64,000 nt of DNA, from assembly GCA_944321895.1 (NCBI GenBank), contig CALUNA010000016.1, positions 1 through 64,000 of the forward strand, in the 5' to 3' direction. Below the pieces are notes generated by a model. The model was not told where the DNA came from and made no database searches. It worked only from the letters and a program-made list of their open reading frames with translations. Shown here piece by piece: positions 22,662 to 55,189 of the stretch (position 1 is the first letter of the stretch; each line of letters begins with the position of its first letter). Made by a program: the position numbers and the translations under genes. Source of the stretch: an uncultured Bacteroidales bacterium (GTDB lineage: Bacteria > Bacteroidota > Bacteroidia > Bacteroidales > Paludibacteraceae).

Positions 22662-25600
22662 ATGAAAAGACAATTCCGACATATTGCGGTTTACCTAATG
22701 TGCGGGCTGTTGTTCCATGCCGCCCATGCCGAGAATATTTATTTCTCAAAAATCGGCATTGAACAGGGTTTGTCACAATTGTCCGTCATGACCATCTATC
22801 AGGATGAACAAGGCGCCATGTGGTTCGGCACCCGCGAAGGAGTGAACCGTTATACAGGCGGCGGAATGGAGACCATGCAACCGCAATCGAACGATTCCAA
22901 TTCGCTGAGCGGGAATATTGTAAAAAAAATATGTGGTGATGGCCAGGGAAAGGTTTTTATTCACACACAAAGCGGCGTAAACCAATATGAATTACGCCAC
23001 GCGCGCCTGAGTATCATTGAATCCGACCCTGTGGACGCCATCTGCTACGGGAGCAGACTTTGGATTGCCGTTGGAAAAGATCTGTTCGTATATCAGGACG
23101 GAGAAAAAACGGCCTATGCACACATAAAGGAAATGGATTCGGAAATAACCGTCATTACCGAACTGTCCAACGGACGCCTCATTGCAGGTACGGTATCCGA
23201 TGGTGTGTTTATCATAGACCAGAACCGCAAAATAAGATGCATTCTAAAGCCAGGAAGCCAGATTTCTGACATTTTTGAGGATTCAAAGAAAAATATCTGG
23301 ATAGGCACATGGGAACACGGGCTGTTCCGTATAGGCCGCGATGGCAGCCAGAAACAATACCTGCCGGACAAGAAAAAGCCGGACAATTCCATATCATCGG
23401 CTTTCGTCAGAACCATATGCGAAGACAACAACGACAACCTGTGGATAGGAACCCGCAAAGGGCTGGATTGCCTGTATATCGAAAATGACAGATTCCTGCA
23501 TTATGATGCCAACGAATCCAACTCACGGATGCTGACAAATGAATCGGTATGGTCGCTGTATAGAGACAAACAAGGAACTATCTGGGTCGGCACCTATTTC
23601 GGAGGAGTCAACTATTTCAATTCGGAATCCGAATTCTGCATCATGCATGACCTGCAAAAAGGAATATTCAGCAATCGTCCGTTCCCTGTCATTGCCGACA
23701 TATTGGAAGATGAAAAACACAACCTTTTCCTCATAACGGAAGGCGAAGGACTGATCTATTACCGCCCACAGGAAAAGACATACGATGTCTACAAATCAGA
23801 CCACAACAACCCGAACAGTCTGGTGAACGACAACATAAAAACAGCATGGCTCGACCGGCAGGACAAGAAACTATGGCTCGGCACCCATCTGGGAGGACTG
23901 TGCTGTCTGGATCTGAAAACCATGCGTTTCAGGCAATTCCGCCACATCAAACCCGAGTGGGACCAATCAAACATAATACGCTCCATCGTCCCATACACAG
24001 ACAACAAACTGTTGATAGCCACCTACAACGGTCTGTTTCTGTTCGACCGGAACACGGAAAAATTCAGTTTGTTCTCGGAAGAATTGCATAAACAGGTAAG
24101 CTATCATGTCGATTTGAAAATCGACAGTGGAGGCTGTTTCTGGATAGCAAGTCGCGGAGTTTTCCGGTATGACCCGTCAACAGGACAGCTGGACCGCTTC
24201 TTTCATGACCCGAACGACAGCACCAGCCTGAGCAGCAACAACGCCAACAAAATATTGATTGACAGCAAAGGCCGCATATGGATTGCCACGAACGGAGGCG
24301 GCCTGAATCTGTATGCCGGTGAAAACCGGTTCATACACTACAACAGCCACACCTGCAACCTGCAGAACGACTACGTAAGCAACTGCATTGAATCACGATA
24401 CGGCTACATAGTTATCAGCACGACCCACGGATTATCCATGCTGGACCCTGAAAACGGACAGCTCAGGAATTTCAACGCCTCCAACGGACTGCGACTCAAT
24501 TCGCTCTATAACGGCGGAATGAGCCTGACCCAGAACGGCGAACTGTATATAGCAGGCATGAACGGTATGATATCATTCCACGAAGAAGACCTGTACAGCA
24601 CACATCGTTCATGCAAACTCTACTTGTCCGACCTGTGGGTAAACAACCAGCGGGTTTTTCCGGGAGACCGGCATAATATACTGCAACAGACACTTCCCTA
24701 CACGGAAAAAATCAGGTTGACCTACCAACAGCGCATGCTACTCATAAAATTTGCCACGGACAATTACATTTCCATACACGAACCATCGTTCCGCTACCGG
24801 ATGGAAGGTTTGTCCGACATATGGATAAACATGCCGCAACAAGTACACCAGTTGAACTTCATTAACCTGCGCCCTGGAAAATACAGACTTTCCATTGAAG
24901 GTATTTCACCCACAGACGGATCCATAGTAGCCACGACCGGTATTGACATACAGGTCACGCCACCATGGTATGCCACCTGGTACGCATACCTTCTATATGC
25001 CGCCATCATCGCCTTCTTCCTATGGCGCTATATCGTTTTCAGCCGCTCCAGGTTCGCACTGAAGACATCCTTGGAATACGAGAAAAAAGAACGAGAACAA
25101 CTGGAAGCCGTGAACCAGTCGAAACTTCGCTTTTTCACCAACATATCCCATGAATTCAGGACACCGCTCACCCTGATTATCGGGCAACTGGACATGCTTT
25201 TGCAAACCCAGGACATACGTCCCGGCGCCTACAACCGGCTGCTGAACATAAAACGCAATGCAAACACCATGCTCCACCTGATAAGCGAATTGCTGGAATT
25301 CAGAAAAAGCGAACAAGGATACCTGCAAATAAAGGTGGCCCAGTTGGACTTTGTCGCGTTCATTTATGAGATATACCTTTCGTTTGCGGAATTTGCGACC
25401 TACCGCAACATCAAACTTGATTTCGTATGCAATGATGAAAAAATCATGCTGTGGTTTGACCCGGTACAAATGCAAAAGGTATTCTACAACCTCATTTCCA
25501 ATGCATTCAAATATACACCCAAAGGCGGGATAATCCGCATAACGGTGGAACAACTGGCAGAAACGGTAGCCGTTTCCGTTACCGACAGCGGTATTGGCAT

Positions 25601-26753
25601 ATCAGCCGATGCCCTAAACAAAATATTCGACCGGTTCTACCAGGCCGAAAACGGACTGCACATGGACAAGACCGGTCCGGGAACCGGCATAGGACTGGCA
25701 CTGACCAAAAACATAGTGGAAGCACACTCGGCCACCATCACGGTAAACAGCCAGGTGGAAGCAGGAAGCACATTCACCGTGACACTGAAAAAAGGTTCGG
25801 CACATTTCACCGAAGCACAAAAAACACATATCCAGACAGTGGAAACAAACTGCGCCCAACAGTTGAAAGACCTTGAACCTGAATTCATATCAGAAATCAT
25901 CAACACGCAAACCACTGATGGATCGCCGGCCTGCACCATGCTCATTGTGGAAGACAGTAAAGAACTGCAAGCCATGCTGAAAAGCATCTTCGAGCCTATC
26001 TACAGAATAATCACCGCCTCCGATGGCGAAGAAGGCCTGCAAATGACCATTGAACACCAGCCAGACATTGTCCTAAGCGACCTCATGATGCCAAAAATGT
26101 CAGGCAGCGAAATGTGCCAGAAAATAAAGAACAATATCAATATCTGCCACATACCAGTCGTATTGCTCACGGCACAGACTGCCATCGAGTACAACATAGA
26201 AAGCCTCCGACTCGGAGCCGACGACTATGTTACCAAACCTTTCAACCTGAAAGTGCTCATAACACGATGCAACAACCTGGTGAACGGACGCAAGTTACTG
26301 CAAGACAAATACATGCACCAGACCGAATTTCCCATGCACCAGATTGCCACCAACAAACTGGACCTGGAATTCATGGAAAAAGCATACAAACTGATTGAAG
26401 ACAATCTGGACAATCCGGATTTTGACATCGCCTGTTTTTCACGTGAAATGGCCATGGGGCGCACCCGGCTCTTCCGGAAAATAAAAGGAATATGCGGGCA
26501 GACGCCCAATGACTTCATACAAACCGTCCGGCTGAAAAAAGCCGCATTCTACCTGAAAAACAATCCGGAATACAACATTGCCGACATCACATACATGACC
26601 GGATTCGGCTCGCCAAAATACTTTGCCAAATGTTTTAAGGAACAATTCGGTATGCCCCCTACCGCTTACAGAAAGGAAGGAAACAACAGCGAAGAAGAAA
26701 ACGTCGATGAAAATGACAATAAAAAAGATACGGAACAGGCTCCCAAAAGCTGA
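22662..26753 (+). CDS. Hybrid two-component system sensor-regulator (HTCS) of the GAG locus
   Basis: A 1363-residue protein combining all parts of a two-component system. In order these are a signal peptide (ending near HAAHA), a periplasmic double beta-propeller of Reg_prop repeats (for example KNIWIGTWEHGLFRI, GTIWVGTYFGGVNYF) and a Y_Y_Y domain to about residue 765. One membrane segment (about 770-795) leads to the histidine kinase with H830 in ISHEFRTPL, an N-box FYNLISNAFKYTP and GTGIGLALTK. A receiver domain with D1140 (DLMMPKMSG) and an AraC-type HTH (about 1235-1345) complete it. HTCS proteins sense the breakdown oligosaccharide of their own PUL and activate it. It stands at the head of the chondroitin/hyaluronan locus, only 28 bp after trxB, and ends at its own terminator. 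Confidence 0.95.
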   Translation: MKRQFRHIAVYLMCGLLFHAAHAENIYFSKIGIEQGLSQLSVMTIYQDEQGAMWFGTREGVNRYTGGGMETMQPQSNDSNSLSGNIVKKICGDGQGKVFIHTQSGVNQYELRHARLSIIESDPVDAICYGSRLWIAVGKDLFVYQDGEKTAYAHIKEMDSEITVITELSNGRLIAGTVSDGVFIIDQNRKIRCILKPGSQISDIFEDSKKNIWIGTWEHGLFRIGRDGSQKQYLPDKKKPDNSISSAFVRTICEDNNDNLWIGTRKGLDCLYIENDRFLHYDANESNSRMLTNESVWSLYRDKQGTIWVGTYFGGVNYFNSESEFCIMHDLQKGIFSNRPFPVIADILEDEKHNLFLITEGEGLIYYRPQEKTYDVYKSDHNNPNSLVNDNIKTAWLDRQDKKLWLGTHLGGLCCLDLKTMRFRQFRHIKPEWDQSNIIRSIVPYTDNKLLIATYNGLFLFDRNTEKFSLFSEELHKQVSYHVDLKIDSGGCFWIASRGVFRYDPSTGQLDRFFHDPNDSTSLSSNNANKILIDSKGRIWIATNGGGLNLYAGENRFIHYNSHTCNLQNDYVSNCIESRYGYIVISTTHGLSMLDPENGQLRNFNASNGLRLNSLYNGGMSLTQNGELYIAGMNGMISFHEEDLYSTHRSCKLYLSDLWVNNQRVFPGDRHNILQQTLPYTEKIRLTYQQRMLLIKFATDNYISIHEPSFRYRMEGLSDIWINMPQQVHQLNFINLRPGKYRLSIEGISPTDGSIVATTGIDIQVTPPWYATWYAYLLYAAIIAFFLWRYIVFSRSRFALKTSLEYEKKEREQLEAVNQSKLRFFTNISHEFRTPLTLIIGQLDMLLQTQDIRPGAYNRLLNIKRNANTMLHLISELLEFRKSEQGYLQIKVAQLDFVAFIYEIYLSFAEFATYRNIKLDFVCNDEKIMLWFDPVQMQKVFYNLISNAFKYTPKGGIIRITVEQLAETVAVSVTDSGIGISADALNKIFDRFYQAENGLHMDKTGPGTGIGLALTKNIVEAHSATITVNSQVEAGSTFTVTLKKGSAHFTEAQKTHIQTVETNCAQQLKDLEPEFISEIINTQTTDGSPACTMLIVEDSKELQAMLKSIFEPIYRIITASDGEEGLQMTIEHQPDIVLSDLMMPKMSGSEMCQKIKNNINICHIPVVLLTAQTAIEYNIESLRLGADDYVTKPFNLKVLITRCNNLVNGRKLLQDKYMHQTEFPMHQIATNKLDLEFMEKAYKLIEDNLDNPDFDIACFSREMAMGRTRLFRKIKGICGQTPNDFIQTVRLKKAAFYLKNNPEYNIADITYMTGFGSPKYFAKCFKEQFGMPPTAYRKEGNNSEEENVDENDNKKDTEQAPKS

Positions 26754-26806: not shown

Positions 26807-26893
26807 CACCCACCTGCACGCACCCGAAAGCATAAACACTTAATAGTCAGCAAGAAACAAACGCAACGGCACATAAGTGCCATCCTAAAATAC

Positions 26894-26925
26894 GGACTAT
26901 TTTATACCTTTTGCGTCCTATTTTA
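26894..26925 (+). promoter_or_regulatory. Candidate HTCS operator upstream of the sulfatase gene
   Basis: Two direct repeats, GGACTATTTTA (26894-26904) and GTCCTATTTTA (26915-26925), are spaced 21 bp start to start, two turns of the helix. The second ends exactly 25 bp before the -7 element at 26951. The flanks also form the inverted pair TCCTAAAAT/ATTTTAGGA. A related box lies at 28592-28624 with the same 25-bp spacing. Confidence 0.6.
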
Positions 26926-26950: not shown

Positions 26951-26958
26951 TAACTTTG
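26951..26958 (+). promoter_or_regulatory. -7 element of the sulfatase promoter
   Basis: TAACTTTG matches TAnnTTTG, 23 bp before the start codon. No -33 element is seen, in keeping with activator dependence. Confidence 0.55.
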
Positions 26959-26981: not shown

Positions 26982-28541
26982 ATGACAAACAAAAGCAACG
27001 CATTTGCAAATAAAATCCAGCATATCCAGCTTGCAGGAATGACCGGCTTGATATCGGCATTGGCTTTGTCGGGATGCACCAGGCAACAAGAAACACCCCC
27101 CAATATATTATATGTATTTCCGGACCAGTTCAGGAACCACGCCCTGGAATTCTGGGGCGACGCCCCGTTTGACACGGTCGGGATTCTGAACGACCCCGTC
27201 CATACTCCAAACCTGAACCGCTTTGCCACGGAAGCAGTTACACTCACATCCGCACAGAGCAACTGTCCGTTAAGCAGTCCCCACCGCGGCATCATGCTCA
27301 CCGGCATGTATCCCGACGGCAGCGGCGTCCCGCTTAACTGCAACGCGACACGCCCCATCAGCAGCCTGCGCACCGATGTTACGACCATAAGCGATGTCCT
27401 CAGCCGGAACGGCTATGACTGCGCCTACATAGGAAAACTGCATGTCGATTTTCCGACACCGAACGACCCTGAAAATCCGGGTCATTATGTGGAAAGCCAA
27501 GTGCCGGCATGGGATGCCTACACACCTCCCGAACGACGGCATGGATTCAACTACTGGTATTCGTACGGAACATTCGATGTACACAAATCACCACACTACT
27601 GGGACACGGAAGGCAAACGCCACGAAATCAGGCAATGGTCGCCGGAGCACGAAGCAGACAAAGCCATAGACTACCTGAAAAACCGGCGCGACCTCGGCAA
27701 ACCGTTTTTCCTGATGGTAGCCATGAACCCGCCACACAGCCCGTACCGCACGTTGGATGACGTAATGGAACAGGATTACAACCTATATAAAGACAAACCG
27801 CTCGACAGTTTGCTTGTACGTCCCAACGTAAACCCGGAACTGACAGACAAACAGGCATGTGCGCCCTACTATTTTGCTTCCGTAACAGGCGTGGACCGCG
27901 CGTTCGGACGCATATTGCAGGCCCTGAAAGAACTTGGCCTGGACAAAAACACGATTGTCGTATTCACATCCGACCACGGCGAAACCATGGCAAGCCATGT
28001 GACCGACCCGAAAAATTCACCTTACACGGAATCCATGAACGTACCTTTCATGATACGTTATCCGGACAAGTTGAAACCCCATATCAACGATGTGCTGCTA
28101 TCCAGCCCCGACATTATGCCGACCATCCTGTCGTTGGCCGGCCTGAAAGGACACATCCCCGCCAGCGTGCAAGGACAAGACCTTGCGGACTGCCTGCGCG
28201 GCACTGCCGACCCTGCCACATTGCCGACAGGCGTGCTTTACCTGCGGAATTTGGACGGGAACAAAGACGAGCAAGGACTCGTTACCGACTATTTTGCCGA
28301 AACACGCGGCATAAAGACAGAACGCTACACGCTTGCGCTGACACTGGACCGCAAAGGCAAACTGAAAAGTACCCTGTTTTTCGACGAACAGAATGACCCC
28401 TTCCAGATGAATAACATAAACCCCGAAGAACAACCGGAGGTTTTTGCGGATTTGTGCCGGCAAATGGCCGGCTTATTGAAAAAAGCCAATGACCCATGGT
28501 ATAGAAACCGAACGCTGAACGACATAATCCCCTACGAATAG
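26982..28541 (+). CDS. Lipoprotein sulfatase (S1 family, serine-type)
   Basis: A 519-residue alkaline-phosphatase-fold sulfatase with a lipoprotein signal (LISALALSGC, acylated Cys32). The maturation motif is S98-S-P-H-R102 (consensus C/S-x-P/A-x-R), so Ser98 would be converted to formylglycine by an anSME enzyme encoded elsewhere. Metal-site elements NILYVFPDQFRNHAL and FTSDHGETMASH are present. In this locus the natural substrate is a sulfated glycosaminoglycan unit, most likely N-acetylgalactosamine sulfate of chondroitin sulfate, but the position (4-O, 6-O or 2-O) cannot be read from sequence. It is the first structural gene after the HTCS terminator and carries a candidate HTCS operator. 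Confidence 0.9.
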   Translation: MTNKSNAFANKIQHIQLAGMTGLISALALSGCTRQQETPPNILYVFPDQFRNHALEFWGDAPFDTVGILNDPVHTPNLNRFATEAVTLTSAQSNCPLSSPHRGIMLTGMYPDGSGVPLNCNATRPISSLRTDVTTISDVLSRNGYDCAYIGKLHVDFPTPNDPENPGHYVESQVPAWDAYTPPERRHGFNYWYSYGTFDVHKSPHYWDTEGKRHEIRQWSPEHEADKAIDYLKNRRDLGKPFFLMVAMNPPHSPYRTLDDVMEQDYNLYKDKPLDSLLVRPNVNPELTDKQACAPYYFASVTGVDRAFGRILQALKELGLDKNTIVVFTSDHGETMASHVTDPKNSPYTESMNVPFMIRYPDKLKPHINDVLLSSPDIMPTILSLAGLKGHIPASVQGQDLADCLRGTADPATLPTGVLYLRNLDGNKDEQGLVTDYFAETRGIKTERYTLALTLDRKGKLKSTLFFDEQNDPFQMNNINPEEQPEVFADLCRQMAGLLKKANDPWYRNRTLNDIIPYE

Positions 28542-28591: not shown

Positions 28592-28624
28592 GTACGATTT
28601 TAGACTTCTTTACGGACTATTTTA
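28592..28624 (+). promoter_or_regulatory. Candidate HTCS operator upstream of the beta-helix genes
   Basis: GTACGATTTTA (28592-28602) and GGACTATTTTA (28614-28624) are direct repeats 22 bp apart. The second lies within TACGGACTATTTTAT, identical over 15 bp to the sulfatase-promoter copy at 26891-26905, and ends exactly 25 bp before the -7 element at 28650. A third partial copy, ACGGACT, is at 28571. Confidence 0.6.
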
Positions 28625-28649
28625 TCCCATTCCGAAACCAGGATCAAGA

Positions 28650-28657
28650 TATTTTTG
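28650..28657 (+). promoter_or_regulatory. -7 element of the beta-helix gene promoter
   Basis: TATTTTTG, a perfect TAnnTTTG match, 39 bp before the start at 28697. Confidence 0.6.
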
Positions 28658-28696: not shown

Positions 28697-30469
28697 ATGA
28701 TGAAAAACATTACTCTTTTAGCTGCTGCTTGCCTTTGCAGCATTTCAGCTTTTTCCACGCGCTACCTGGTGCAAACCGGCTTGGATAGCGATGCTAAATG
28801 GACACGCACTCTTCAAGAAGGAGAAGAACTTATTGACTTGACCGAAAAAGGCAAAAAACTGAACGAAGTATATAAACAAGGCGAACATGAATGGTGGTTG
28901 GCTGCCGGCGATTATGAAATTACAGCATCCATGAATTTCGTAAACGGAGTGAAAATTTATGGCGGCTTTGCCGGAACGGAAACAAGTTTGGCTACACGCG
29001 CGCAGGCAGATAATGCACAACCATGGGAATTTGAAAACATAACAAGCATAACAGGAAACAACACATTTCCTATTTTTACATGTACAGCAAACCTCCCCAT
29101 TGAAACAATCTTAGATGGTGTAACCGTTCAAAATGGAGTTACCAGCGGCAATGGCGGTGGCATGACAATTCGTCCTAACGGCTATGTACGCAATTGCCGT
29201 TTCCTATACAACACAGCAAGTGGCCAAGGCGGTGCAATTCTTTTCAATGGAGGCGGCACAGTAGAAGATTCGTATTTTTTCAATAATAATGCAAAGTTGG
29301 GTGGCGCTTGCCATATCGCAAAAATATCAAGTATAACCGGCTGTCTTTTTGAAAACAATATTGCTGAACAAGGAGGAGCCATTCGCAGTCAGGCTACCGA
29401 TGGTACTATTGCCAATTGTATTATCCGCAACAACACAGCGACAACCAATGGTTCCGGCATATACACACAAACAGCAACTACCAGTGCAACCAAGATCATT
29501 AACTGCTTGATTTATGGGAACAAAACCAACGTTGCTATTTATATGTACGGCGCAGACATCATAAATTGCACTGTTGATGGAGGAAACTTAAACTCTGTAT
29601 ATGTTACAACAGCTGGCGGTAAAATTATCAACAGCGTATTTACATCAGACATTCAAAGTAATTTGGCTACTGGCGTTGAATTCACAAATAATGCATATAA
29701 AGCCATAACAGCAACAGAAACAATTGGGAATGTCGAGTGGACGACCTCCAACAACATCCAAATCACCGATGGCAACTTCGGTTTCACAAATGCCGCCAAT
29801 GGCGATTACACGTTGGCAAGCACTTCCCCGCTTATTAATGCAGGCACCGATGTTTCCGAAGATTACGCATTGGCAGCTACCGACCTTATCGGCACGACCC
29901 GCCCGCAAGGCGCAGCCTATGACCTCGGAGCATACGAATGTCCGTATTACACCATAAGTGTAACAATCGAAGGAAGTGAATACGGTACTATTTATGATGA
30001 TAAAGGCACAGCAATTCCATCCGAGACTTCGACAAGCATCAGAAAAGGCTCTACACTCAGTGGATACATCACAACTAATACAGGTTACGAAATAGCTGAA
30101 GCATATTATACAAATGCGGAAGGAACTAAAACAGACCTAAAAAACCAGATAATCGAAGATGCTGGAACAGGAAGATGGAACTACACATTGACCATAACAG
30201 AAGACATGGACATAACAGTTGTCTTCAAAGCAAAAGGCAGCACTACAAACTTGCAAGCAAACAATATCAATGCATTCCGTTGCACGGTTAACAACGGCAT
30301 GTTGCAAGTGAGTGGACTCCAGCTCGGTGAAACCATAAGCATATACAACATAACCGGCAGCAAAGTAGCCGAACTCACAGCATCTGATTCAAATACATCT
30401 GTTACACTGCAACAAGGCATTTACCTCGTGCGCGCAGCAGGACAGACAAAGAAAATAATTCTCAACTAA
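28697..30469 (+). CDS. Secreted parallel beta-helix protein with T9SS tail, first copy
   Basis: A 590-residue protein. The start at 28697 (MMKNITLLAAACLCSISAFS, signal peptide) lies downstream of the promoter; the frame upstream overlaps it. Residues ~65-390 form a right-handed beta-helix with repeated rungs (GGAILFNGGGTVEDSYFFNN, GGAIRSQATDGTIANCIIRN). It closes with PQGAAYDLGAYE, a choice-of-anchor-Q type end. A beta-rich repeat domain (GTIYDDKG...IRKGSTLSGYI) and a T9SS sorting tail (ISIYNITGSKVAEL...GIYLVRAAGQTKKIILN) follow. No known lyase family can be assigned. Its place behind an HTCS box in a glycosaminoglycan locus suggests binding or cleaving the polymer at the surface, which is inference. 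Its codons look more AT-rich than those of the neighbours. Confidence 0.8.
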   Translation: MMKNITLLAAACLCSISAFSTRYLVQTGLDSDAKWTRTLQEGEELIDLTEKGKKLNEVYKQGEHEWWLAAGDYEITASMNFVNGVKIYGGFAGTETSLATRAQADNAQPWEFENITSITGNNTFPIFTCTANLPIETILDGVTVQNGVTSGNGGGMTIRPNGYVRNCRFLYNTASGQGGAILFNGGGTVEDSYFFNNNAKLGGACHIAKISSITGCLFENNIAEQGGAIRSQATDGTIANCIIRNNTATTNGSGIYTQTATTSATKIINCLIYGNKTNVAIYMYGADIINCTVDGGNLNSVYVTTAGGKIINSVFTSDIQSNLATGVEFTNNAYKAITATETIGNVEWTTSNNIQITDGNFGFTNAANGDYTLASTSPLINAGTDVSEDYALAATDLIGTTRPQGAAYDLGAYECPYYTISVTIEGSEYGTIYDDKGTAIPSETSTSIRKGSTLSGYITTNTGYEIAEAYYTNAEGTKTDLKNQIIEDAGTGRWNYTLTITEDMDITVVFKAKGSTTNLQANNINAFRCTVNNGMLQVSGLQLGETISIYNITGSKVAELTASDSNTSVTLQQGIYLVRAAGQTKKIILN

Positions 30470-30488
30470 TCCATTAAAACCACCAACC

Positions 30489-30519
30489 GCCGGTACGTCG
30501 GAATATCCGATGTGCCGGC
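30489..30519 (+). other. Strong intergenic hairpin between the beta-helix genes
   Basis: GCCGGTACGTCGGA pairs with TCCGATGTGCCGGC (14 pairs, two of them G-U) around a 3-base loop. No T-run follows, so mRNA processing or stability is more likely than termination. Confidence 0.6.
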
Positions 30520-30548
30520 AAATTTCTTAATCAAAAAAAAGTACAACT

Positions 30549-32510
30549 ATGAAGAAACTGACATTCATCATGCTGACTTTGGTATGCTCCATGAGTTTAT
30601 GGGCATTACCGGAAAACGGAGTAGTTTATGTAACCCCCGACGGAGCAGGTTCCAAAGACGGTTCATCGTGGGACAACGCCATGAGCGACATTACGGAAGC
30701 ACTGACCGAAGCCGTACGTACAGCAGGCAATAAAAAGGATGTATGGGTAGCGGGCGGAACATATGAACTATCCGGACCAGTAAACCTGAAAGACTCCGTA
30801 AACATGTACGGCAGCTTTGCCGGTACGGAAACAAGCGTTTCAGAGCGCCCCCAGGCAGAAGGTGCACAACCTTGGGAATTCGAGAATCCGACCATTCTGC
30901 AAGCAGATGGCACAAACCGCGTTATCCAGGCACGCGGACACATGGCTTTGGATATCGTCATTGACGGTTTCGTGTTCACCAACGGAGGCGACAGCGACAA
31001 TGGCGAGAATCCGGTACTTAACGGAAAAGCAGGCGCAGTAGTCTGCCGCGGAGGAACTATCTGGCAAAACTGCATTATACGCGGCAACAAAAGTGTTGTA
31101 GAAGGCAACGGAGCCGGCATAAACATGACCGGAGGAGTCGTACGCTATTGCCTCATTGAAAACAATGCCCAAAGCATAGGAGCCAACGGCGGAGGCGGCA
31201 TTTTCTCCAACCCGGCATCCGGTTATACATCGACCATTGAAAACTGCGTTGTACGTGGCAACACAAGTACAGTACGCGGTGCAGGTATCGGATTGCAAGG
31301 CGGACAAATGACCTACATACGCAACTGCGTAATTTACGGCAACAGCGCAATAAATGGAACTGCACTGCAACCCGGCGGAGGCATTCGCGCACAAGGAACA
31401 TCCAACAATGAAATCAACAACTGCGTAATATACAACAACTCAGGTTCGAGCGCGGTATATTATCAAAGCGGCAATTTCTACAACAACACCATAGTTGCCA
31501 ACATAGGCGGCATGTATATAGGCGGAATCACGGCCAATATTATCAACAACGTTATTTGGAACTGCACAACCGAAGACCAGACCACTCCAACCAGCATAAC
31601 CGGTGCAAGTGGAGGTCCTACCTGCCGTGTACTAAACAACTACACACGTAATCCGGTTTCAGGAGAAAACGGTTGGACCATATCTGAAACGGCAGGGGTA
31701 ACCAATTCCAACCTGCAATTTCCTGACAATGCAACCAATGACACGGTATGGAATCTGGAAACCAATGAATTTACCGGTGTTGGTCCATGCTTTGTTAATC
31801 CGAACACATTCTCTGTCGGAGCAGGAGAAGCGGCCGACCTGGAAGAAAATATTGAATACTGGGCCAGCCTTGACTGGAATCTGAAACCAGGTTCCCCACT
31901 TATTGACAAAGGTATGGCACTTACCGATATTCTTACGGAAGACATAACCGGTCTGGAACGTCCGCAAGGAAACAGCTGGGATATTGGCGCATACGAGCAT
32001 CCATTCTTCACCGTTACAGTTGTCACCATCAAAGGAAATGAAAACGGCGTTGTTTTCGACGCAAACGATGAAATAACCGAAGGCGACACCTTCTTATTCC
32101 AAAAAGGCTCTTCATTGAATTGGTATTTCCTGCCCAACGAAGGTTATGAAGCCTATGTTACCTACACAAATGCGAATGGCGAAGAAACAAATATTTCCGA
32201 AAGCATCGATGCTGCAAACGAAGGCTTGTGTTCCTGGGTAATTACCGAAGAAATGAACATTAATATTGATTTCCGGGAAATCGGTAGCGGCCTGCACAGC
32301 CTGACAGCCGACAACATCCAGTTGAGCGCACAAAACAACCTGCTGACCATTAAGGGATTGAACATCAACGATGCCATATCCGTATATAGCGTAACCGGAG
32401 CCCTGGTATATCGTGCATCGGCTTCGCAGGCAGAGGTGTCCATTCCGTTGTCCAACGGCATTTACGTAGTCCGTATCAACAACGCGGTTCAGAAAGCCAT
32501 TATGAAATAA
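30549..32510 (+). CDS. Secreted parallel beta-helix protein with T9SS tail, second copy
   Basis: A 653-residue paralogue of the preceding protein. It has the signal peptide MKKLTFIMLTLVCSMSLWA, an opening VVYVTPDGAGSKDGSSWDNA motif, and a beta-helix of rungs such as GAGINMTGGVVRYCLIENNA and GGGIFSNP...IENCVVRGN. The same PQGNSWDIGAYE end, a beta-rich domain (NGVVFDANDEITEGDTFLFQ) and a sorting tail (ISVYSVTGALVYR...GIYVVRINNAVQKAIMK) follow. The segment MYGSFAGTETS...GAQPWEFEN is shared with the first copy. Function is unknown. The chondroitinase B (PL6) fold is also a beta-helix, but I cannot identify its catalytic Lys/Arg here. It is probably co-transcribed with the first copy. Confidence 0.8.
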   Translation: MKKLTFIMLTLVCSMSLWALPENGVVYVTPDGAGSKDGSSWDNAMSDITEALTEAVRTAGNKKDVWVAGGTYELSGPVNLKDSVNMYGSFAGTETSVSERPQAEGAQPWEFENPTILQADGTNRVIQARGHMALDIVIDGFVFTNGGDSDNGENPVLNGKAGAVVCRGGTIWQNCIIRGNKSVVEGNGAGINMTGGVVRYCLIENNAQSIGANGGGGIFSNPASGYTSTIENCVVRGNTSTVRGAGIGLQGGQMTYIRNCVIYGNSAINGTALQPGGGIRAQGTSNNEINNCVIYNNSGSSAVYYQSGNFYNNTIVANIGGMYIGGITANIINNVIWNCTTEDQTTPTSITGASGGPTCRVLNNYTRNPVSGENGWTISETAGVTNSNLQFPDNATNDTVWNLETNEFTGVGPCFVNPNTFSVGAGEAADLEENIEYWASLDWNLKPGSPLIDKGMALTDILTEDITGLERPQGNSWDIGAYEHPFFTVTVVTIKGNENGVVFDANDEITEGDTFLFQKGSSLNWYFLPNEGYEAYVTYTNANGEETNISESIDAANEGLCSWVITEEMNINIDFREIGSGLHSLTADNIQLSAQNNLLTIKGLNINDAISVYSVTGALVYRASASQAEVSIPLSNGIYVVRINNAVQKAIMK

Positions 32511-32530: not shown

Positions 32531-32568
32531 AGACATTCCGGACGGTAACCGTCCGGATGTCTGTTTTT
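32531..32568 (+). terminator. Terminator-like hairpin just upstream of susC
   Basis: AGACATTCCGGACGG (32531-32545) pairs with CCGTCCGGATGTCT (32549-32562) with one bulge, followed by GTTTTT. It lies 27 bp before the susC start, and no TAnnTTTG is seen between the two, so partial read-through is possible. Confidence 0.8.
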
Positions 32569-32595
32569 AAACAATTTCACAAAACCCGACATAAT

Positions 32596-35500
32596 ATGAA
32601 GAACACTTGCATCAAATATTTACTGCCTCTTTTATGTTTCCTGTACATATCGGCGGCATCATGGTCGCAGACTACGGTAAGCGGTGTCGTTCTGGACGAG
32701 ACAGACATGACGCTTATCGGTGTCAATGTCATGGAAAAGGGAACGACCAACGGCACAATTACCGACTTTGACGGCAATTTCAGTTTGTCCGTAAAAAACA
32801 AGGAAGCTGTTCTTGTATTTTCATATATCGGCTACCAGACCGTAGAAATGCAGGCAAGCACCTCTCCGATGAAAATTATCATGAAAGAAGACAGCAAAGC
32901 CCTGGATGAAGTTGTTGTCATCGGTTACCAGGATGTACGGCAAAAAGACCTGACCGGTTCCGTATCCAAGGCTAACGTAGAAGATATTTTGAAAGCTCCT
33001 GTTGCCAGCTTCGACCAGGCACTGGCCGGACGTATAGCCGGTGTGAACGTTTCATCGGGTGAAGGAATGCCAGGTGGAACCATGAATATCGTAATCCGCG
33101 GTGCGAACTCCGTAACCCAGGACAACTCCCCATTGTATATCGTGGATGGTTTTCCGGTTGAAGACCCGACCGTGGCGGCCTCCATCAACTCAAATGACAT
33201 TGAATCCATTAACGTACTGAAAGATGCATCCGCAGCAGCCATTTACGGGTCACGCGGCGCCAACGGCGTTATCATCATCACCACCAAAACGGGAACAGTA
33301 GGCAAGCCAACCGTTTCATACGATGGTTCGGTTGGCGTGCAACGTATCACACACACCATTCCGATGATGGACGCCTACGAGTTCGTACGACTGCAATCAG
33401 AAATATACACCGCTTCGGAAATGAGCGGTTCCAGCGGCTATTTCCAGACTTATGAAGGCAAGAAATGGACATTGGAAGACTATCGGGACATAGCCCAGTA
33501 CAACTGGCAGGACCTGATTTTCCGCAACGCCATGCAGCAGAACCACAGCCTCTCGGTAGTTGGCGGTACGGAAGGCATACGCTATAACGCCTCCATGTCC
33601 TACTATGACCAGGATGGTATCGTACTCGGTTCCAACTACAACCGACTGCAAGGCCGTCTGAATACAACCCTGACCAAAAACAAACTGAAAATAAATCTTT
33701 CGACCAACTACTCGCGCAGTATTCAGAACGGTTCATCCCCATCGCAGTCGGAATACAGCGGCATGAACAACCTGTTCTACAGCGTATGGGGCTACCGTCC
33801 GGTGACACAACCTGACGTTCCACTGGAAACCCTGCTCGAGAATGCATACGATGCCAGCGTGGACCAGACAAACGACTACCGTTTCAACCCCTACATGTCA
33901 TTGCTCAATGAGTACAAGAAAAACACCATCTCCTATACACAATACAACGGCTACCTGGAATATGAATTCATAAAAGGACTGAAACTGAAAGTATCGGGAG
34001 GCTACACTGTGGACAACCGCCGCAACGAGACATTCAACAACTCCAAGACACGTTACGGCTCCCCCATTTCCACCGACAAGGTGAACGCGACCATGGCCAA
34101 TTCGGAACGCCGCACCTGGTTGAACGAAAACGTGCTGACTTATCAGACAATGATCAAGAAAAACCATTCGCTGAACGTTCTGGCCGGTGTGACCTTGCAA
34201 GGTTCAAGCTATGGCTACTACAGTTTCAAAACCATCAATATCCCGAACGAATCTCTGGGTATGGCCGGCATGAGCGAAGGTACGCCAAGTACGACGAGCT
34301 CGGAAGAAACGGAATGGAGCATGCTTTCCTATCTGGCACGTTTGAACTATAATTACAAATCGCGCTACTACCTGACCGCATCGTTCCGTGCCGATGGTTC
34401 CTCCAAATTTCCCCAAAACAACCGCTTCGGATATTTCCCATCCGCATCCGTAGCATGGAACTTTACGGAAGAAGATTTCTGGGCACCGGCATCATCGGTC
34501 ATGAACGAAGGTAAAATACGTCTGAGCTGGGGAGCCACCGGCAACAACCGTATCGACGAATATGCCTACTATTCCCAGATCAAACTGATGCAAACCGCCC
34601 AAGGCAACTACACCAACATAACAGACCTGGCACACGGAAACTACCCGTTCAACAACGAAGTATCAAGTACCGGCGCTGTTCCGTTGAACCTTGCCAACGA
34701 AGAAGTGAAATGGGAAACCACCACACAAACCAACCTGGGTTTCGACCTGGCCTTTCTGAAAGACCGCATAGCCGTAACCATCGACCTGTATGACAAATAT
34801 ACCACCGACTTGTTGCTGACGGCAGCTACACCACCATCTACCGGTTACCGGAGCACCGTGAAAAACATCGGGTCGGTACGCAACCAGGGACTGGAGTTTA
34901 CGCTGAACACGACCAACATAGAACGGCCGCACTTCCGCTGGACAACCAACTTCAACATAGCATTCAACAAAAATCGCGTAGTAGAACTGGCCGAAGGACA
35001 GACAGCCTTGCAGACAAATGCCTATTTTGACCAGAGTTTCACCTCACCGAACTACATTGCCAAGGTGGGCTATCCCATCGGCATGATGTACGGCTATGTG
35101 TATTTGGGCACCTACAAATATGATGATTGTATCCTAACCGGTTATGACACCAATAATAACCCCATATATAAATTAAAAGACGGCATAGCACCGCACGTAA
35201 ACGACATGAACCCACAACCCGGTTATGCCCGTTATGCCGACCTGAACGGTGACGGTATTGTCAATTCGGAAGACCAGACCTTTATCGGCCGCGGCGATCC
35301 TATCCACACGGGCGGATTCACGAACAACTTTGAATTCTACGGCTTTGACGTCAGCATATTCTTCCAATGGTCCTACGGGAACGACATTCTGAACGCCAAC
35401 AAACTCATGTTTGAAAGCGGCTACCAGAAACGCAAAGACTTGAACAAATTCGCATCCTACATAGACCGCTGGACACCGGAAAATCCGAACAGCGATATTC

Positions 35501-35799
35501 CAAGCGTAGCATCCTACGCATCAGACAACGTGTTCTCCACCCGGCTTATCGAAGATGGTTCATTCCTGCGCCTGAAAACCGTATCCATAGGCTACTCATT
35601 CAGTCAGGCAATCTGCACACGTCTGAAAATCAACAAGCTGCGCATATACTTATCCGGACAGAACCTGTACACGTTCACCAAATACACCGGTTACGACCCG
35701 GAAGTGTCCATACGTAACAGCGCCCTGACACCCGGACTTGATTTCTCGGCTTATCCGCGTGCAGCATCCATTAATGCAGGCCTAAACATTACTTTCTAA
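32596..35799 (+). CDS. SusC-family TonB-dependent outer-membrane transporter
   Basis: A 1067-residue transporter. The signal peptide (MKNTCIKYLLPLLCFLYISA) fixes the start at 32596; the longer frame begins within the terminator hairpin. Next are the N-terminal carboxypeptidase-regulatory-like domain (VSGVVLDETDMTLIGVNV... ending VFSYIGYQTVEM), the TonB box (LDEVVVIGY) and the plug (IVIRGANSVTQDNSPLYIVD, SAAAIYGSRGANGVIIITTK). A 22-strand barrel ends in the typical aromatic NAGLNITF. SusC imports oligosaccharides captured by its SusD partner, which starts 18 bp downstream. In this locus the cargo is expected to be chondroitin or hyaluronan fragments (inference from the flanking lyases). Confidence 0.95.
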   Translation: MKNTCIKYLLPLLCFLYISAASWSQTTVSGVVLDETDMTLIGVNVMEKGTTNGTITDFDGNFSLSVKNKEAVLVFSYIGYQTVEMQASTSPMKIIMKEDSKALDEVVVIGYQDVRQKDLTGSVSKANVEDILKAPVASFDQALAGRIAGVNVSSGEGMPGGTMNIVIRGANSVTQDNSPLYIVDGFPVEDPTVAASINSNDIESINVLKDASAAAIYGSRGANGVIIITTKTGTVGKPTVSYDGSVGVQRITHTIPMMDAYEFVRLQSEIYTASEMSGSSGYFQTYEGKKWTLEDYRDIAQYNWQDLIFRNAMQQNHSLSVVGGTEGIRYNASMSYYDQDGIVLGSNYNRLQGRLNTTLTKNKLKINLSTNYSRSIQNGSSPSQSEYSGMNNLFYSVWGYRPVTQPDVPLETLLENAYDASVDQTNDYRFNPYMSLLNEYKKNTISYTQYNGYLEYEFIKGLKLKVSGGYTVDNRRNETFNNSKTRYGSPISTDKVNATMANSERRTWLNENVLTYQTMIKKNHSLNVLAGVTLQGSSYGYYSFKTINIPNESLGMAGMSEGTPSTTSSEETEWSMLSYLARLNYNYKSRYYLTASFRADGSSKFPQNNRFGYFPSASVAWNFTEEDFWAPASSVMNEGKIRLSWGATGNNRIDEYAYYSQIKLMQTAQGNYTNITDLAHGNYPFNNEVSSTGAVPLNLANEEVKWETTTQTNLGFDLAFLKDRIAVTIDLYDKYTTDLLLTAATPPSTGYRSTVKNIGSVRNQGLEFTLNTTNIERPHFRWTTNFNIAFNKNRVVELAEGQTALQTNAYFDQSFTSPNYIAKVGYPIGMMYGYVYLGTYKYDDCILTGYDTNNNPIYKLKDGIAPHVNDMNPQPGYARYADLNGDGIVNSEDQTFIGRGDPIHTGGFTNNFEFYGFDVSIFFQWSYGNDILNANKLMFESGYQKRKDLNKFASYIDRWTPENPNSDIPSVASYASDNVFSTRLIEDGSFLRLKTVSIGYSFSQAICTRLKINKLRIYLSGQNLYTFTKYTGYDPEVSIRNSALTPGLDFSAYPRAASINAGLNITF

Positions 35800-35817: not shown

Positions 35818-37524
35818 ATGAAACTGAAACACATCAAATATATTTCCCTTGCCGCCTGCACTGCGATAATGGGGACGGCATGTTCCGACTTTCTGGAAAA
35901 AGAACCACGCCTTTCGACCACGGAAACCTACTTCAAATCGGAAAGCGAACTCAATACCTTCCTCACGGGCGTTTACAGTCCCATCATGCAGGAACACTTC
36001 TACGGGAACAACTACCCGCTCTATCTGGCCGGAGGCGATGACCTGACATTCTACCAACGTTCCAATCCGGCCGCGGAAACCATGATTTGCGGAAACGCAA
36101 ACAGCAGCGGCACGGAAATCCAGAAATTCTGGGCCATCCTCTACGATGGTATCAACCGTGCAAACCTGTTGCTCGAAAACGTCAACAGGAACGAAGAAAT
36201 AACCCTGTCCACACGGCAGCGGATTGAAGCGGAAGCCCTGTTCCTGCGCGCATTCTACTATTTCCACCTCGTGCAATGCTGGGGCGATGTGCCCATGCGA
36301 CTGGAATCCGTAAAAAGCGCATACGGGCTCGATATTGAACGTACAGACAAGCAGGTTGTTTACGACCAGCTCATTTCCGACATGCAAACGGCAATTCCGA
36401 AGCTGTACAGCCTTGCCGACCTGGACTATACGGGACGCATTACGCGAGAAGCCGCCAAAGGTATTCTGGCACGCGTCTATATGTTCCGTGCCGGTGCACG
36501 CGATACCGATGGCAATTCACGGGAATACTACGAAGCTGCACTCAAATGGGCAAAAGAAGTAAAAGACAGTGCCAGTGTTGCCAACCTGGGATTGGTAAAA
36601 CCCTACAACCGCGTTTTCAAGGATTTGTGCGAAGACCTGTACAACAGCACCGGCGTAAAAGAAAGCCTGTGGGAAGCTGAAGAAGCCGGCAACCGTACCT
36701 CCGTGGAACAGGCTGCCGGACGTCTGGGCAACACACTCGGCTTCGGAGGGCCCGACCTGTCATCGTCGGAAGAATACATGAATCTGGGTGGACTCACCAA
36801 TCCGGGATACAGCTATAAATTCGCGTATGCTTCCCTGAAACTGTATGAAATGTACGAAGCCGAAGGAGATACGGCACGCGGTGACTGGAACATAACCCCG
36901 TTTGAATACATCGTGAGCAGTACAACAGGCGCTGTAACCGGCAGACGCTATTATTACGGCAAACTGCCGGAAGGTTCCGTTATCCAAACCGGAATTCTGG
37001 AAGAGCAGACCGAAGCCACCAGCAAAAACAACAAGACACGCTGTGCTGCAAAATACCGCCGCGAATACGAAAAAGTATTGCCGAAACACAAGAATTACAC
37101 TCCTATCAACTTCCCTATTTTGCGATACAGCGACATTCTGCTCATGATTGCCGAAGCAGAAAACGAATTGAACGGAGCTCCTACCGCACTGGCATACGAA
37201 TGTATCAACGCCGTGCGCGAACGTGCCGACCTTGAGGCGTTGCCGGCAGGTTTGTCGAAGGACGAATTTCTGGCAAAACTGAAAAATGAACGAGCCATGG
37301 AATTTGCCTTTGAGGCTCTGCGCAGATGGGATTTAATCCGCTGGGGTGAATTCTATACAACCATTAAGGGCATGAACGAATACATCTACAAAGAAGGCTG
37401 GGGCAGCAACTACACCTATGCAGCCGATTATTATAACGGAGTATCAGAAGCCTATGTCTACTTCCCGATACCAACATCGGAATTGTCTGTCAACAACAAA
37501 ATAACACAAAACCCCGGTTGGTAA
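35818..37524 (+). CDS. SusD-family surface glycan-binding lipoprotein
   Basis: A 568-residue SusD/RagB protein with the lipoprotein signal ending MGTACSDFLE (acylated Cys). It shows typical family features: FLEKEPRLSTTETYF near the N-terminus, EALFLRAFYYFHLVQCWGDVP, the TPR-like helical region, FPILRYSDILLMIAEAENEL and the C-terminal ERAMEFAFEALRRWDLIRWG. It forms the lid of the SusC barrel and binds the oligosaccharide. It follows susC by 18 bp and shares its operon. Glycosaminoglycan specificity is inferred from context only. Confidence 0.95.
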   Translation: MKLKHIKYISLAACTAIMGTACSDFLEKEPRLSTTETYFKSESELNTFLTGVYSPIMQEHFYGNNYPLYLAGGDDLTFYQRSNPAAETMICGNANSSGTEIQKFWAILYDGINRANLLLENVNRNEEITLSTRQRIEAEALFLRAFYYFHLVQCWGDVPMRLESVKSAYGLDIERTDKQVVYDQLISDMQTAIPKLYSLADLDYTGRITREAAKGILARVYMFRAGARDTDGNSREYYEAALKWAKEVKDSASVANLGLVKPYNRVFKDLCEDLYNSTGVKESLWEAEEAGNRTSVEQAAGRLGNTLGFGGPDLSSSEEYMNLGGLTNPGYSYKFAYASLKLYEMYEAEGDTARGDWNITPFEYIVSSTTGAVTGRRYYYGKLPEGSVIQTGILEEQTEATSKNNKTRCAAKYRREYEKVLPKHKNYTPINFPILRYSDILLMIAEAENELNGAPTALAYECINAVRERADLEALPAGLSKDEFLAKLKNERAMEFAFEALRRWDLIRWGEFYTTIKGMNEYIYKEGWGSNYTYAADYYNGVSEAYVYFPIPTSELSVNNKITQNPGW

Positions 37525-37558: not shown

Positions 37559-38539
37559 ATGAAAAAGAATATTGCAATACTGCTCGGCTGCGTACTGTTG
37601 GCCAGTTGTAATCAAGATATGAAACGGGAACTGGAGTTTTCCGTTGATGTGGACATGTCAAAACCCTACATTTCTTACGATGGGACAGCATATACTTTGC
37701 CCAAGAACCAAGCTATTACATTCCTGTTTTCCGGCGATCCGGATTTTATATCCATGCGCTATGACTGCTTCGAGGAAACTACCTCATCATTGATTTTTTC
37801 AACCAATCTTTCAAATAGCAGTGCAAATCCAACCAACTCGCTGGAAGTCCTGCTTGCCAACAGTTTGCCCGAACTCACACAGAATACTGAAAGCGCGGCA
37901 ACAGATTCGGCAGCCATCCGCGACCATGACTGGAACAACGTGACCGGACTTTGCAAAAATCTGCCGCTGAACACCCCGGGAGGCAACGGAACCGACACCG
38001 TTTCATTGGAAGCATACCGGGGCGGAAATGTAGTAATTGCATTCCGTTACAAACCGGAGAACAAGGATGAAAACCAACCCGGGTGGGACATCAACGACCT
38101 GCGCATTGAAACCAACCTGAAAACGTCCGGAGAAAAAATAACCGAATACGGCGTCGATTCCATAGCTGCCATCACATTTGACATGCTCAATTTGGCAAAT
38201 CCATACAATGCACAAGATGCCGCATCCAACCACATATGGCGAGAATCCATTACGGAACATAAATGGTACATATCGTTTAGCCTATCACGATACGACCTGA
38301 ATGAAGACTGGCTGATCCTAGGTCCTGTTGCCATTCCGACCGGCAGAAGCAGCAGTTTCTATGACACGGACAACAGCACATACGCAGTTTCCATCAAAGA
38401 CATGACGGAAACAGTCACATCATACGACTACACATTCACGACAGCTGGAGTTTACGACGTTACCTTCCGTGCAAGCAACAGCAACTACATCATGGATGAA
38501 AGCATGGAAATAAAACTGACAATTAACGTTACAGAATAA
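37559..38539 (+). CDS. Probable surface glycan-binding lipoprotein (DUF5017-like)
   Basis: A 326-residue lipoprotein (MKKNIAILLGCVLLASC) with a beta-sandwich-like, aromatic-rich body and no enzyme motif. The N-terminal MKRELEFSVDVD and the C-terminal PKD-like segment (TFTTAGVYDVTFRASN) resemble the DUF5017 lipoproteins that follow SusD genes in Bacteroides. Position directly after susD is where surface glycan-binding proteins (SusE/F analogues) normally lie. It probably helps hold the polymer at the cell surface. The family call is tentative; the lipoprotein signal and position are clear. Confidence 0.65.
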   Translation: MKKNIAILLGCVLLASCNQDMKRELEFSVDVDMSKPYISYDGTAYTLPKNQAITFLFSGDPDFISMRYDCFEETTSSLIFSTNLSNSSANPTNSLEVLLANSLPELTQNTESAATDSAAIRDHDWNNVTGLCKNLPLNTPGGNGTDTVSLEAYRGGNVVIAFRYKPENKDENQPGWDINDLRIETNLKTSGEKITEYGVDSIAAITFDMLNLANPYNAQDAASNHIWRESITEHKWYISFSLSRYDLNEDWLILGPVAIPTGRSSSFYDTDNSTYAVSIKDMTETVTSYDYTFTTAGVYDVTFRASNSNYIMDESMEIKLTINVTE

Positions 38540-41500: not shown

Positions 41501-41698
41501 TACTACCGGCTCGATGAGAACCAGATATGCATAGACGGAACAACGGATGCCGTGTCCGTCTATACGATAGATGGCCGACTCATGATCACCCAGACCGGCA
41601 AAACCGGGAAACGCATACTTCAATTGCCAAAATCGCAGGTATATCTGCTCAAGGCAAACCTGCCAGACCAGAAAACCGTTTATCAGTTAATCCTGTAG
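38552..41698 (+). CDS. Polysaccharide lyase family 8, chondroitinase ABC-like, with sorting-type tail
   Basis: A 1048-residue lyase with a signal peptide (MKYKLVFLLSLLPWWGFA), an N-terminal lyase_N beta-sandwich, an alpha/alpha toroid and C-terminal beta domains. The catalytic residues match Proteus chondroitinase ABC: H429 and Y436 in FHHGGHYPAY, R489 in ISGRHP and E585 in WGSEIYTSENRYGRY. Spacing is close to that of the enzyme (501/508/560/653). It eliminates across the hexosamine-uronate bond of chondroitin sulfate, dermatan and often hyaluronan, giving unsaturated disaccharides. The last ~60 residues (VSVYTIDGRLMI...QVYLLKANL) look like a T9SS sorting tail, suggesting surface action. It starts 12 bp after the lipoprotein gene. 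Confidence 0.93.
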   Translation: MKYKLVFLLSLLPWWGFAADVAFNFETETAPATLVNNGSGTLQLVTAPYKDGSHSLQWNWTQTSTELLIDEARTLQVWRDGVIFWVYNPTPCENPLRCEFRDTDGNVQYYFDFNLNFKGWRICRIGSKYMKGDKKVRSNLKLYLTSPEGMAEGTLYIDRMSFVSDVNYQNAPDAQQPENTDLTEYNNHWAYLWEWEKQEYDIPLPDALTEENKASLEQVKAGIDAQLSKNSRINTAKTYFENAGIKREGDFIVGTPLVMNDDVTDGDMSLATLEVMLYGLAQDAYFNNSEESKEKFLLAWDFAHDQGLAWGSSMGSNHHYGYSIREVFLGMYLMRDVLQETGRLDEAAATLSYWSGLPESRVPFNNTRDGLVDCWNTLLNGRVIAAIMMDNELESYRAMQALTRWVEGSLFPTPGNVGGIKPDGCVFHHGGHYPAYAIGGLATLGDFFACINGTEFNVSSDARMNLANALFAMSEYCNFKDWPNGISGRHPLDGSISADVVETFGQLSLAGGLYHAEESIDSKLGAEYLRLGGTALKDTLGKAGITKGETPQGFYVFNHACLGIHRYQESMVSMKGYNSDVWGSEIYTSENRYGRYQSYGAVEIFNGGGTEASNISRSGSCFVEAGWDWNRIPGTTTIHLPWNRLVCPQSSTLMARSNEDFAGASALSGEYGIFGMKLWEENAINNTYYTTDFKARKSVFAFGKRLVCIGSNIRNSEDTYNTETTLFQNRISAPSKTITVNGESVTAISYSNTLQSAEPVIISDIIGNYYRLAPNMDLHIAGGSQSSIQNNGKTASSGNFIAAWLNHGTAPQNAAYEYMIMLKPTEDEIAAWTENPQYEVLQCDSNAHIVHDMESDTYGYVIYESSESLPGYLLGCTEETLVLMHLIDDNSMAISVCDPSINLPEKVKNSDQAVLPGEPKTKTLVLPGTTWASADDGSSPELRQENGNTVLDVTCLLGEPVEFTLKNPSVNLTEHLNDVSGIRYYRLDENQICIDGTTDAVSVYTIDGRLMITQTGKTGKRILQLPKSQVYLLKANLPDQKTVYQLIL

Positions 41699-53865: not shown

Positions 53866-53887
53866 CCATAATCTATAATTACTCTAT

Positions 53888-55150: not shown

Positions 55151-55189
55151 ACAGAACCAATTTCCAAAGACTTTTATACAAAACATGTT

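Follow-up and report, generated by a model that had tools for sequence, protein, structure and literature searches.

Two beta-helix genes in a chondroitin-type locus

The 64,000-nucleotide stretch analysed here (positions 1 to 64,000, forward strand, of contig CALUNA010000016.1 in assembly GCA_944321895.1, from an uncultured Bacteroidales bacterium of the Paludibacteraceae; hereafter the window) carries a complete polysaccharide utilization locus (PUL) of glycosaminoglycan (GAG) type on its + strand, and within it two adjacent genes, termed BH1 and BH2, that encode beta-helix proteins with tails typical of the type IX secretion system (T9SS). A sequence-only reading of this DNA had placed two paralogous secreted proteins of this kind between a sulfatase gene and susC, and profile searches, the paralogue alignment and AlphaFold2 models bear this out. 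The pair is organized as follows.

28697..30469, + strand: BH1; a signal peptide is followed by a beta-helix capped by choice_anch_Q (about aa 21-415), an Ig-like beta-sandwich (aa 417-512) and a T9SS type A C-terminal domain (CTD; aa 528-590)
30549..32510, + strand: BH2; a signal peptide is followed by a beta-helix capped by choice_anch_Q (about aa 25-484), an Ig-like beta-sandwich (aa 486-577) and a T9SS type A CTD (aa 591-653)

Both reading frames are intact, with BH1 running from the ATG at 28697 to a stop codon ending at 30469, and the two proteins align over nearly their full length (28% identity, E 9e-65). The NCBIfam model choice_anch_Q (NF041518) scores above its cut-off of 25 in both (39.9 and 39.2 bits), and the Pfam matches are to Beta_helix (PF13229) for BH2 and to POMP repeats for BH1. 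AlphaFold2, supplied with alignments of 13-14 sequences, models each protein as a beta-helix followed by an Ig-like domain and, at the C-terminus, a small beta-sandwich, the quality being good for BH1 (predicted local distance difference test, pLDDT, 86.8) and moderate for BH2 (pLDDT 75.3, with poor loops). The top fold match of both is Rhombotarget A (PDB 9cdu and 9cdv; E 4e-7 to 8e-6, template modelling score about 0.5 on the target), followed by phage tailspikes for BH1 and by PL9, GH87 and PL6 enzymes for BH2; the adhesin PfbA stands lower among the structural matches of the pair. Searching PDB sequences with BH1 and BH2 gave chance matches only, and a weak PHROGs match of BH1 to a virion structural protein (36.9 bits) is read as probably reflecting the shared fold.

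The genes that surround the pair, and complete the locus, are these.

22662..26753, + strand: hybrid two-component sensor-regulator (HTCS), the likely locus regulator (Reg_prop, Y_Y_Y, HisKA, HATPase, Response_reg, HTH_18)
26982..28541, + strand: S1_27-like sulfatase (PF00884), probable chondroitin/dermatan 4-O-endosulfatase; best solved relative 6s21
32557..35799, + strand: SusC/RagA TonB-dependent transporter, directly downstream of BH2 (TIGR04056, 979 bits)
35818..37524, + strand: SusD-like lipoprotein (profile match)
37559..38539, + strand: DUF5017/choice_anch_J lipoprotein in the position of a surface glycan-binding protein (SGBP; Pfam and NCBIfam matches)
38552..41698, + strand: PL8a, chondroitinase ABC-like (PL8 domains; nearest solved relative chondroitin ABC lyase I), with a weak T9SS-like C-terminal tail
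41733..42941, + strand: GH88 unsaturated glucuronyl hydrolase (profile and solved-structure matches)
42995..46072, + strand: PL8b, a chondroitinase without T9SS tail (nearest solved relative 2q1f chondroitinase, E 1e-240)

PL8, GH88, a GAG sulfatase, a SusCD pair and an HTCS thus stand together, which is the combination that defines a chondroitin/dermatan sulfate PUL and agrees with the locus type first assigned. The nearest solved structure to the sulfatase is that of the endo-4-O-sulfatase 6s21 (E 4.5e-219), which we take to be the structure of Bacteroides thetaiotaomicron BT3349 S1_27, so that the substrate points to chondroitin/dermatan 4-sulfate, with hyaluronan as a possible additional one. 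Directly after PL8b (window 46076-47164) lies a gene for an APH-family phosphotransferase (PF01636), which might act in the pathway as a kinase of sugars or amino sugars.

Conservation of the pair and its association with PL8 loci

The whole PUL is present in a sister genome (G001, an uncultured Bacteroidales; BH contig CASDOZ010000006.1), where protein identities to the window range from 69% (SGBP) to 98% (PL8b) and reach 86% for BH1 and 84% for BH2. A single-sequence search with BH1, which is free of profile bias, found strong matches among 60 relatives solely in G001, G026 and G038, and in all three the BH gene lies beside a SusC 60-93% identical to that of the window. Searched against genome contigs, BH2 had a close match only in the sister genome, five others being short or weak and from unrelated phyla, and a class-wide search added three weaker BH matches outside the order. 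Within the family, a BH homologue at E up to 1e-85 occurs in 14 of 250 genomes, all 14 being among the 22 that have PL8, with a p value (1e-17) that overstates the case because the cut-off was chosen after the list had been seen, the search profile (A2) included GAG-locus sequences and the genomes are related. The association also holds within genera among the matches listed (g2, 8/8, p 0.002; g21, 3/3, p 0.0009).

Most of these homologues are directly 5' of susC, with PL8, GH88 or an S1_27-like sulfatase nearby, in loci that read BH, then SusC, SusD, SGBP and PL8. A SusC 53-67% identical to that of the window is encoded directly downstream of BH in G026, G038, G447, G516, G522, G526, G538, G542, G580, G626 and G635; contig ends truncate the loci of G624, G582, G580, G026 and G421. 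Clusters of BH, SusCD and PL8 extend to two further families: f3, where G038 has the order BH, BH, SusC, SusD, SGBP, PL8, GH88, and f60, where G200 carries two BH loci of this same kind, one of them with three BH genes. In a tree of 40 rows, BH1-type and BH2-type proteins form separate clades, which by this tree are old paralogue clades, and both types are carried by G000, G001, G447, G624, G626 and probably G026. The GAG-locus label, which we assigned from our own reading of the loci, changes only 2 times on this tree against a shuffled mean of 8.9, with support of only 81-92 at the deeper forks; the BH1-like row G522C9 is the exception that lies outside PL8 loci. The sequence-only reading had counted homologues mostly outside GAG loci among the findings that would speak against it; close homologues are in fact almost all in PL8 loci, and the link to GAG loci survives.

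Some related loci depart from this layout. In G447 (L184:4364-6277), a 637-aa secreted protein that has no counterpart in the window is encoded between HTCS and sulfatase, and G582 has a C-terminal piece similar to it upstream of its sulfatase. G026 (L044:2-2815, L043, L045) joins a BH1-like end and two repeat domains in frame with a BH2-like helix (937 aa, 5' open), and on another contig the same BH1-like segment ends in a tail; this looks like either a duplication or a fusion, with contig breaks at the locus. Three BH genes, one of 1649 aa, lie upstream of a 53% identical SusC in G542 C129 (L193), with a PL8 match about 4 kb past susC. In G019 C18 and G027 C4 (L017, L018), open frames of about 4700 codons contain numerous BH domains in tandem, which belong to the same broad family, and distant BH proteins stand beside other SusCD pairs and T9SS-tailed proteins, with no PL8, in G066 (L088), G542 C135 (L198), G465 (L200) and G614 (L202).

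Predicted export, fold and regulation of BH1 and BH2

The signal peptides of BH1 and BH2 were identified by eye. The T9SS tail model TIGR04183 scores 22.9 (BH1) and 23.6 bits (BH2) in full-length scans, around its cut-off of 23, and clears it with the last 120 aa alone (27.6 and 26.5 bits); the Pfam tail model PF18962 stays under its cut-off of 27 (18.6 and 19.4 bits). The predicted C-terminal domains give modest fold matches to CTDs of T9SS cargo, that of BH2 to 5hfs (E 0.015) and that of BH1 to RgpB 7pq4 (E 0.0085). Since the genome has a SprA match at 2754 bits and 40 T9SS tail matches, the secretion system itself is present. With a signal peptide and a Por_Secre_tail each, BH1 and BH2 qualify, if borderline, as T9SS type A cargo, and their predicted export to the surface is supported by the tails, the CTD fold matches and SprA. 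They stand beside SusCD as an SGBP does but carry a T9SS CTD instead of the lipobox of that lipoprotein-anchored class, and so may work in an SGBP-like manner without being classical SGBPs.

The two lyases of the locus seem to differ in location. The C-terminus of PL8a (window 41500-41698) has a T9SS-like tail at 20.1 bits (E 4.6e-4), below the cut-off of 23, the same scan found no match in the C-terminus of PL8b, and in G038 the PL8 tail is clear, at 27.6 bits. This suggests a split in which PL8a is surface-located and PL8b periplasmic, and given the weak tail of PL8a together with the clear one in G038, the locus probably encodes a surface lyase already.

Lyases of PL1, PL3, PL6 and PL9, GH28 enzymes and some uronate epimerases fold as right-handed beta-helices, and the pair had accordingly been suggested to represent a new surface lyase family akin to PL6 chondroitinase B. 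This idea is not supported. Pfam searches up to E 10 gave no match of BH1 or BH2 to any PL family profile, including PL1, PL3 and PL9; the PL6 profile PF14592 matched neither the pair nor anything else in the genome; and hhalign of the BH proteins against real PL6 proteins returned probabilities of 2% and 23%. The conserved Lys/Arg/Asp cluster looked for by analogy with PL6 has no comparable form in the BH alignments: four PL6 proteins at 35-38% identity share invariant E229, E234, E236, K241, R262 and H263, an acid/Lys/Arg/His set without counterpart there. BH1-type proteins conserve E95, R101, D140 and D318 along with choice_anch_Q residues, with no conserved Lys, Arg or His in the helix body of their alignment, and BH2-type proteins conserve, among others, E231 and R243 (both 10/10) and R167 and R178 (both 8/10). 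In the structural comparison, the BH2 model does match the PL9 lyase Pel9A (E 1e-5) and the PL6 fold (E 5e-4), but Rhombotarget A, which is no lyase, matches better. The pair shares its fold with PL6 chondroitinase B and alginate lyases but not their profile or catalytic residues; Pfam profiles, hhalign and residue conservation lead us to reject membership in PL6 or another beta-helix lyase family, and by alignments and models alike BH1 and BH2 are probably not lyases.

Control of the pair by the HTCS is suggested by a candidate HTCS box, present in two promoters.

26892..26925, + strand: candidate HTCS box in the sulfatase promoter, in which ACGGACTATTTTAT and GCGTCCTATTTTAG form direct half-sites at a distance of 21 nt
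26951..26958, + strand: TAACTTTG, candidate Bacteroidota -7 element (pattern TAnnTTTG) in the sulfatase promoter
28594..28625, + strand: second candidate HTCS box, upstream of BH1, with ACGATTTTA and ACGGACTATTTTAT as half-sites at a distance of 22 nt
28650..28657, + strand: TATTTTTG, candidate -7 element (pattern TAnnTTTG) for the BH1-led operon

In the whole 2.6-Mb genome, the exact 14-mer ACGGACTATTTTAT occurs only twice, at 26892 before the sulfatase and at 28612 before BH1. Each is paired with a second half-site to give a direct repeat of 21-22 nt period, in which one half-site precedes the -7 element by 31 nt; in the sulfatase promoter, ATTTT stands 52 and 31 nt before TAACTTTG. The box suspected in the initial reading is therefore credible, a direct repeat upstream of a transcription unit being what marks an HTCS regulon at the sequence level. 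The sulfatase-promoter box is kept in G001 with one mismatch, and a half-site 30-31 nt from a -7 element lies upstream of BH genes in G000, G001, G447, G522 and G582 (two genera); it was not seen at that spacing before the BH genes of G038, G200, G421 and G542. An HTCS 46-59% identical to that of the window adjoins BH genes in G447, G200 C2 and G421. These data support a putative HTCS box shared by the sulfatase gene and the BH1-led unit.

Probable surface capture and alternative roles

In many related genomes, BH1 and BH2 have the same transporter and enzymes as neighbours, and they are therefore probably surface catchers for chondroitin sulfate rather than enzymes. Specifically, we favour with moderate confidence that they are T9SS-exported, surface-displayed and non-catalytic capture proteins of a chondroitin/dermatan sulfate locus. 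To the gene order, domains, box and co-conservation read directly from the DNA, this adds predicted regulation, co-transcription, export, GAG binding and lack of catalysis. GAG oligosaccharides in the periplasm would activate the HTCS, which would bind direct repeats of CGnnCTATTTTA and switch on the sulfatase gene and the BH1-led operon. BH1 and BH2 would cross the inner membrane via Sec and the outer membrane via the T9SS, lose their CTDs and be retained on the cell surface, where their beta-helix rods could hold GAG chains or proteoglycan near SusCD, the lipoprotein SGBP and the T9SS-tailed PL8a. PL8a would make the first cuts at the surface, SusCD would import the fragments, and PL8b, GH88 and the 4-O-sulfatase would finish them in the periplasm. 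The capture pair would thereby concentrate GAG at SusCD, joining or replacing a surface layer of the B. thetaiotaomicron type.

Several observations weigh against this reading. Both proteins are acidic (pI 4.6 for BH1 and 4.3 for BH2), which is unusual for GAG binders; PL8a and the SGBP of the locus are equally acidic, however, so that net charge does not discriminate. An outward-facing ladder of aromatic or basic residues along the coils was unconvincing as well, since outward coil residues are 32% aromatic and 11% basic in the GAG-locus proteins versus 22-25% and 7-13% elsewhere, without clear enrichment over non-GAG relatives. GAG binding itself is a prediction. Many PL8 loci also lack BH genes (G044, G401, G095 C10, G292, G421 C61, G094, G291, G368), so the pair is an optional surface part, inessential for GAG use. 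More distant BH relatives occur in other SusCD loci without PL8, and T9SS-positive Bacteroidales may use beta-helix cargo as an accessory of PULs in general.

Such relatives bear on the alternative that BH1 and BH2 are general T9SS adhesins or structural spacers, which bind a non-GAG target (a host protein, mucin or the cell's own surface) and are only incidentally co-expressed with the GAG locus. These genomes commonly encode beta-helix T9SS proteins, including the multi-thousand-residue arrays and those beside other SusCD pairs, and the acidity of the pair and its matches to tailspikes and, lower, to PfbA fit this role; a general adhesin would not be expected, though, to track PL8 as the two clades do almost throughout (except G522C9), and we regard this explanation as rather unlikely. 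Catalysis by one or both proteins, as a new surface lyase or uronosyl epimerase with BH2 as the better candidate, draws on the fold common to PL families, the BH2 matches to Pel9A and PL6, the conserved BH2-type Glu and Arg residues and the surface PL29 lyase of the equivalent B. thetaiotaomicron locus (PMC6994673). It is unlikely in view of the missing profile match and PL6-type residues, a BH1-type helix body without conserved Lys, Arg or His, the closer fold match to Rhombotarget A and the probable presence of a surface lyase in PL8a. Its most specific form, with BH2 founding a T9SS-displayed family of GAG lyases or uronosyl epimerases around an active site of E231/R243 and neighbouring Arg/Tyr and BH1 as a non-catalytic partner, seems a long shot. 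Finally, BH1 and BH2 might be T9SS-delivered protein partners of SusC, accessory to the transporter complex and not glycan binders. A BH gene lies directly 5' of susC in nearly all loci, even where SusC is only about 31% identical (G200, G421), and in other systems SusCD is the site of complexes with surface enzymes and SGBPs (PMC7618045; by co-immunoprecipitation in PMC6994673). Gene order alone does not establish contact, however, and this role appears very improbable.

With the PUL of B. thetaiotaomicron for chondroitin sulfate, dermatan sulfate and hyaluronan (BT3324-BT3334 and BT3348-BT3350; PMC6994673), the window locus shares the HTCS, SusC/SusD, two PL8, GH88, the endo-4-O-type sulfatase and a lipoprotein in SGBP position after SusD. 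The difference lies at the surface, where B. thetaiotaomicron has the PL29 lyase BT3328 and the SGBPs BT3329 and BT3330, with SGBPs and surface lyase located at SusCD in the model for that species (PMC6994673, PMC12877422), whereas the BH pair and a PL8 with T9SS-like tail would join or replace that layer. The BT3328-BT3330 layer is the fastest-diverging part of the GAG pathway and is lost in some species (PMC6994673, PMC12877422), which fits its replacement by another surface system. The view that coupling a T9SS layer to SusCD is an unusual design goes too far, because PULs for chitin (ChiUL of Flavobacterium johnsoniae, PMC5127042) and fungal cell walls (Chitinophaga pinensis, PMC10449523) also encode T9SS cargo and the principle is therefore not new. 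Their cargo consists of enzymes for other substrates, e.g. GH18 chitinases, in contrast to the apparently non-catalytic beta-helices found here, and the novelty appears to lie in the cargo type and the GAG setting; open-access literature searches found no such beta-helix proteins in GAG loci.

Overall, a T9SS-exported beta-helix pair in the surface-capture position, which accompanies PL8 in different genera and families and has a promoter box in common with the sulfatase, most likely represents a new variant of the surface layer of GAG PULs and a testable candidate for an alternative route to catching host proteoglycan. It would also offer an initial clue to the function of choice-of-anchor Q beta-helix proteins, an abundant group for which the searches turned up no role and which NF041518 names for the domain common to BH1 and BH2, not for a function; the phrase choice-of-anchor Q was not found in an open-access literature search. 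Rhombotarget A, although the best fold match of the pair, is only about 15% identical, belongs to a different sorting system and has no known GAG link. Further downstream in the window (51922-56479), a glycogen or starch cluster encodes a debranching enzyme (GDE_N/GDE_C), a glycosyltransferase and a GH57 protein.

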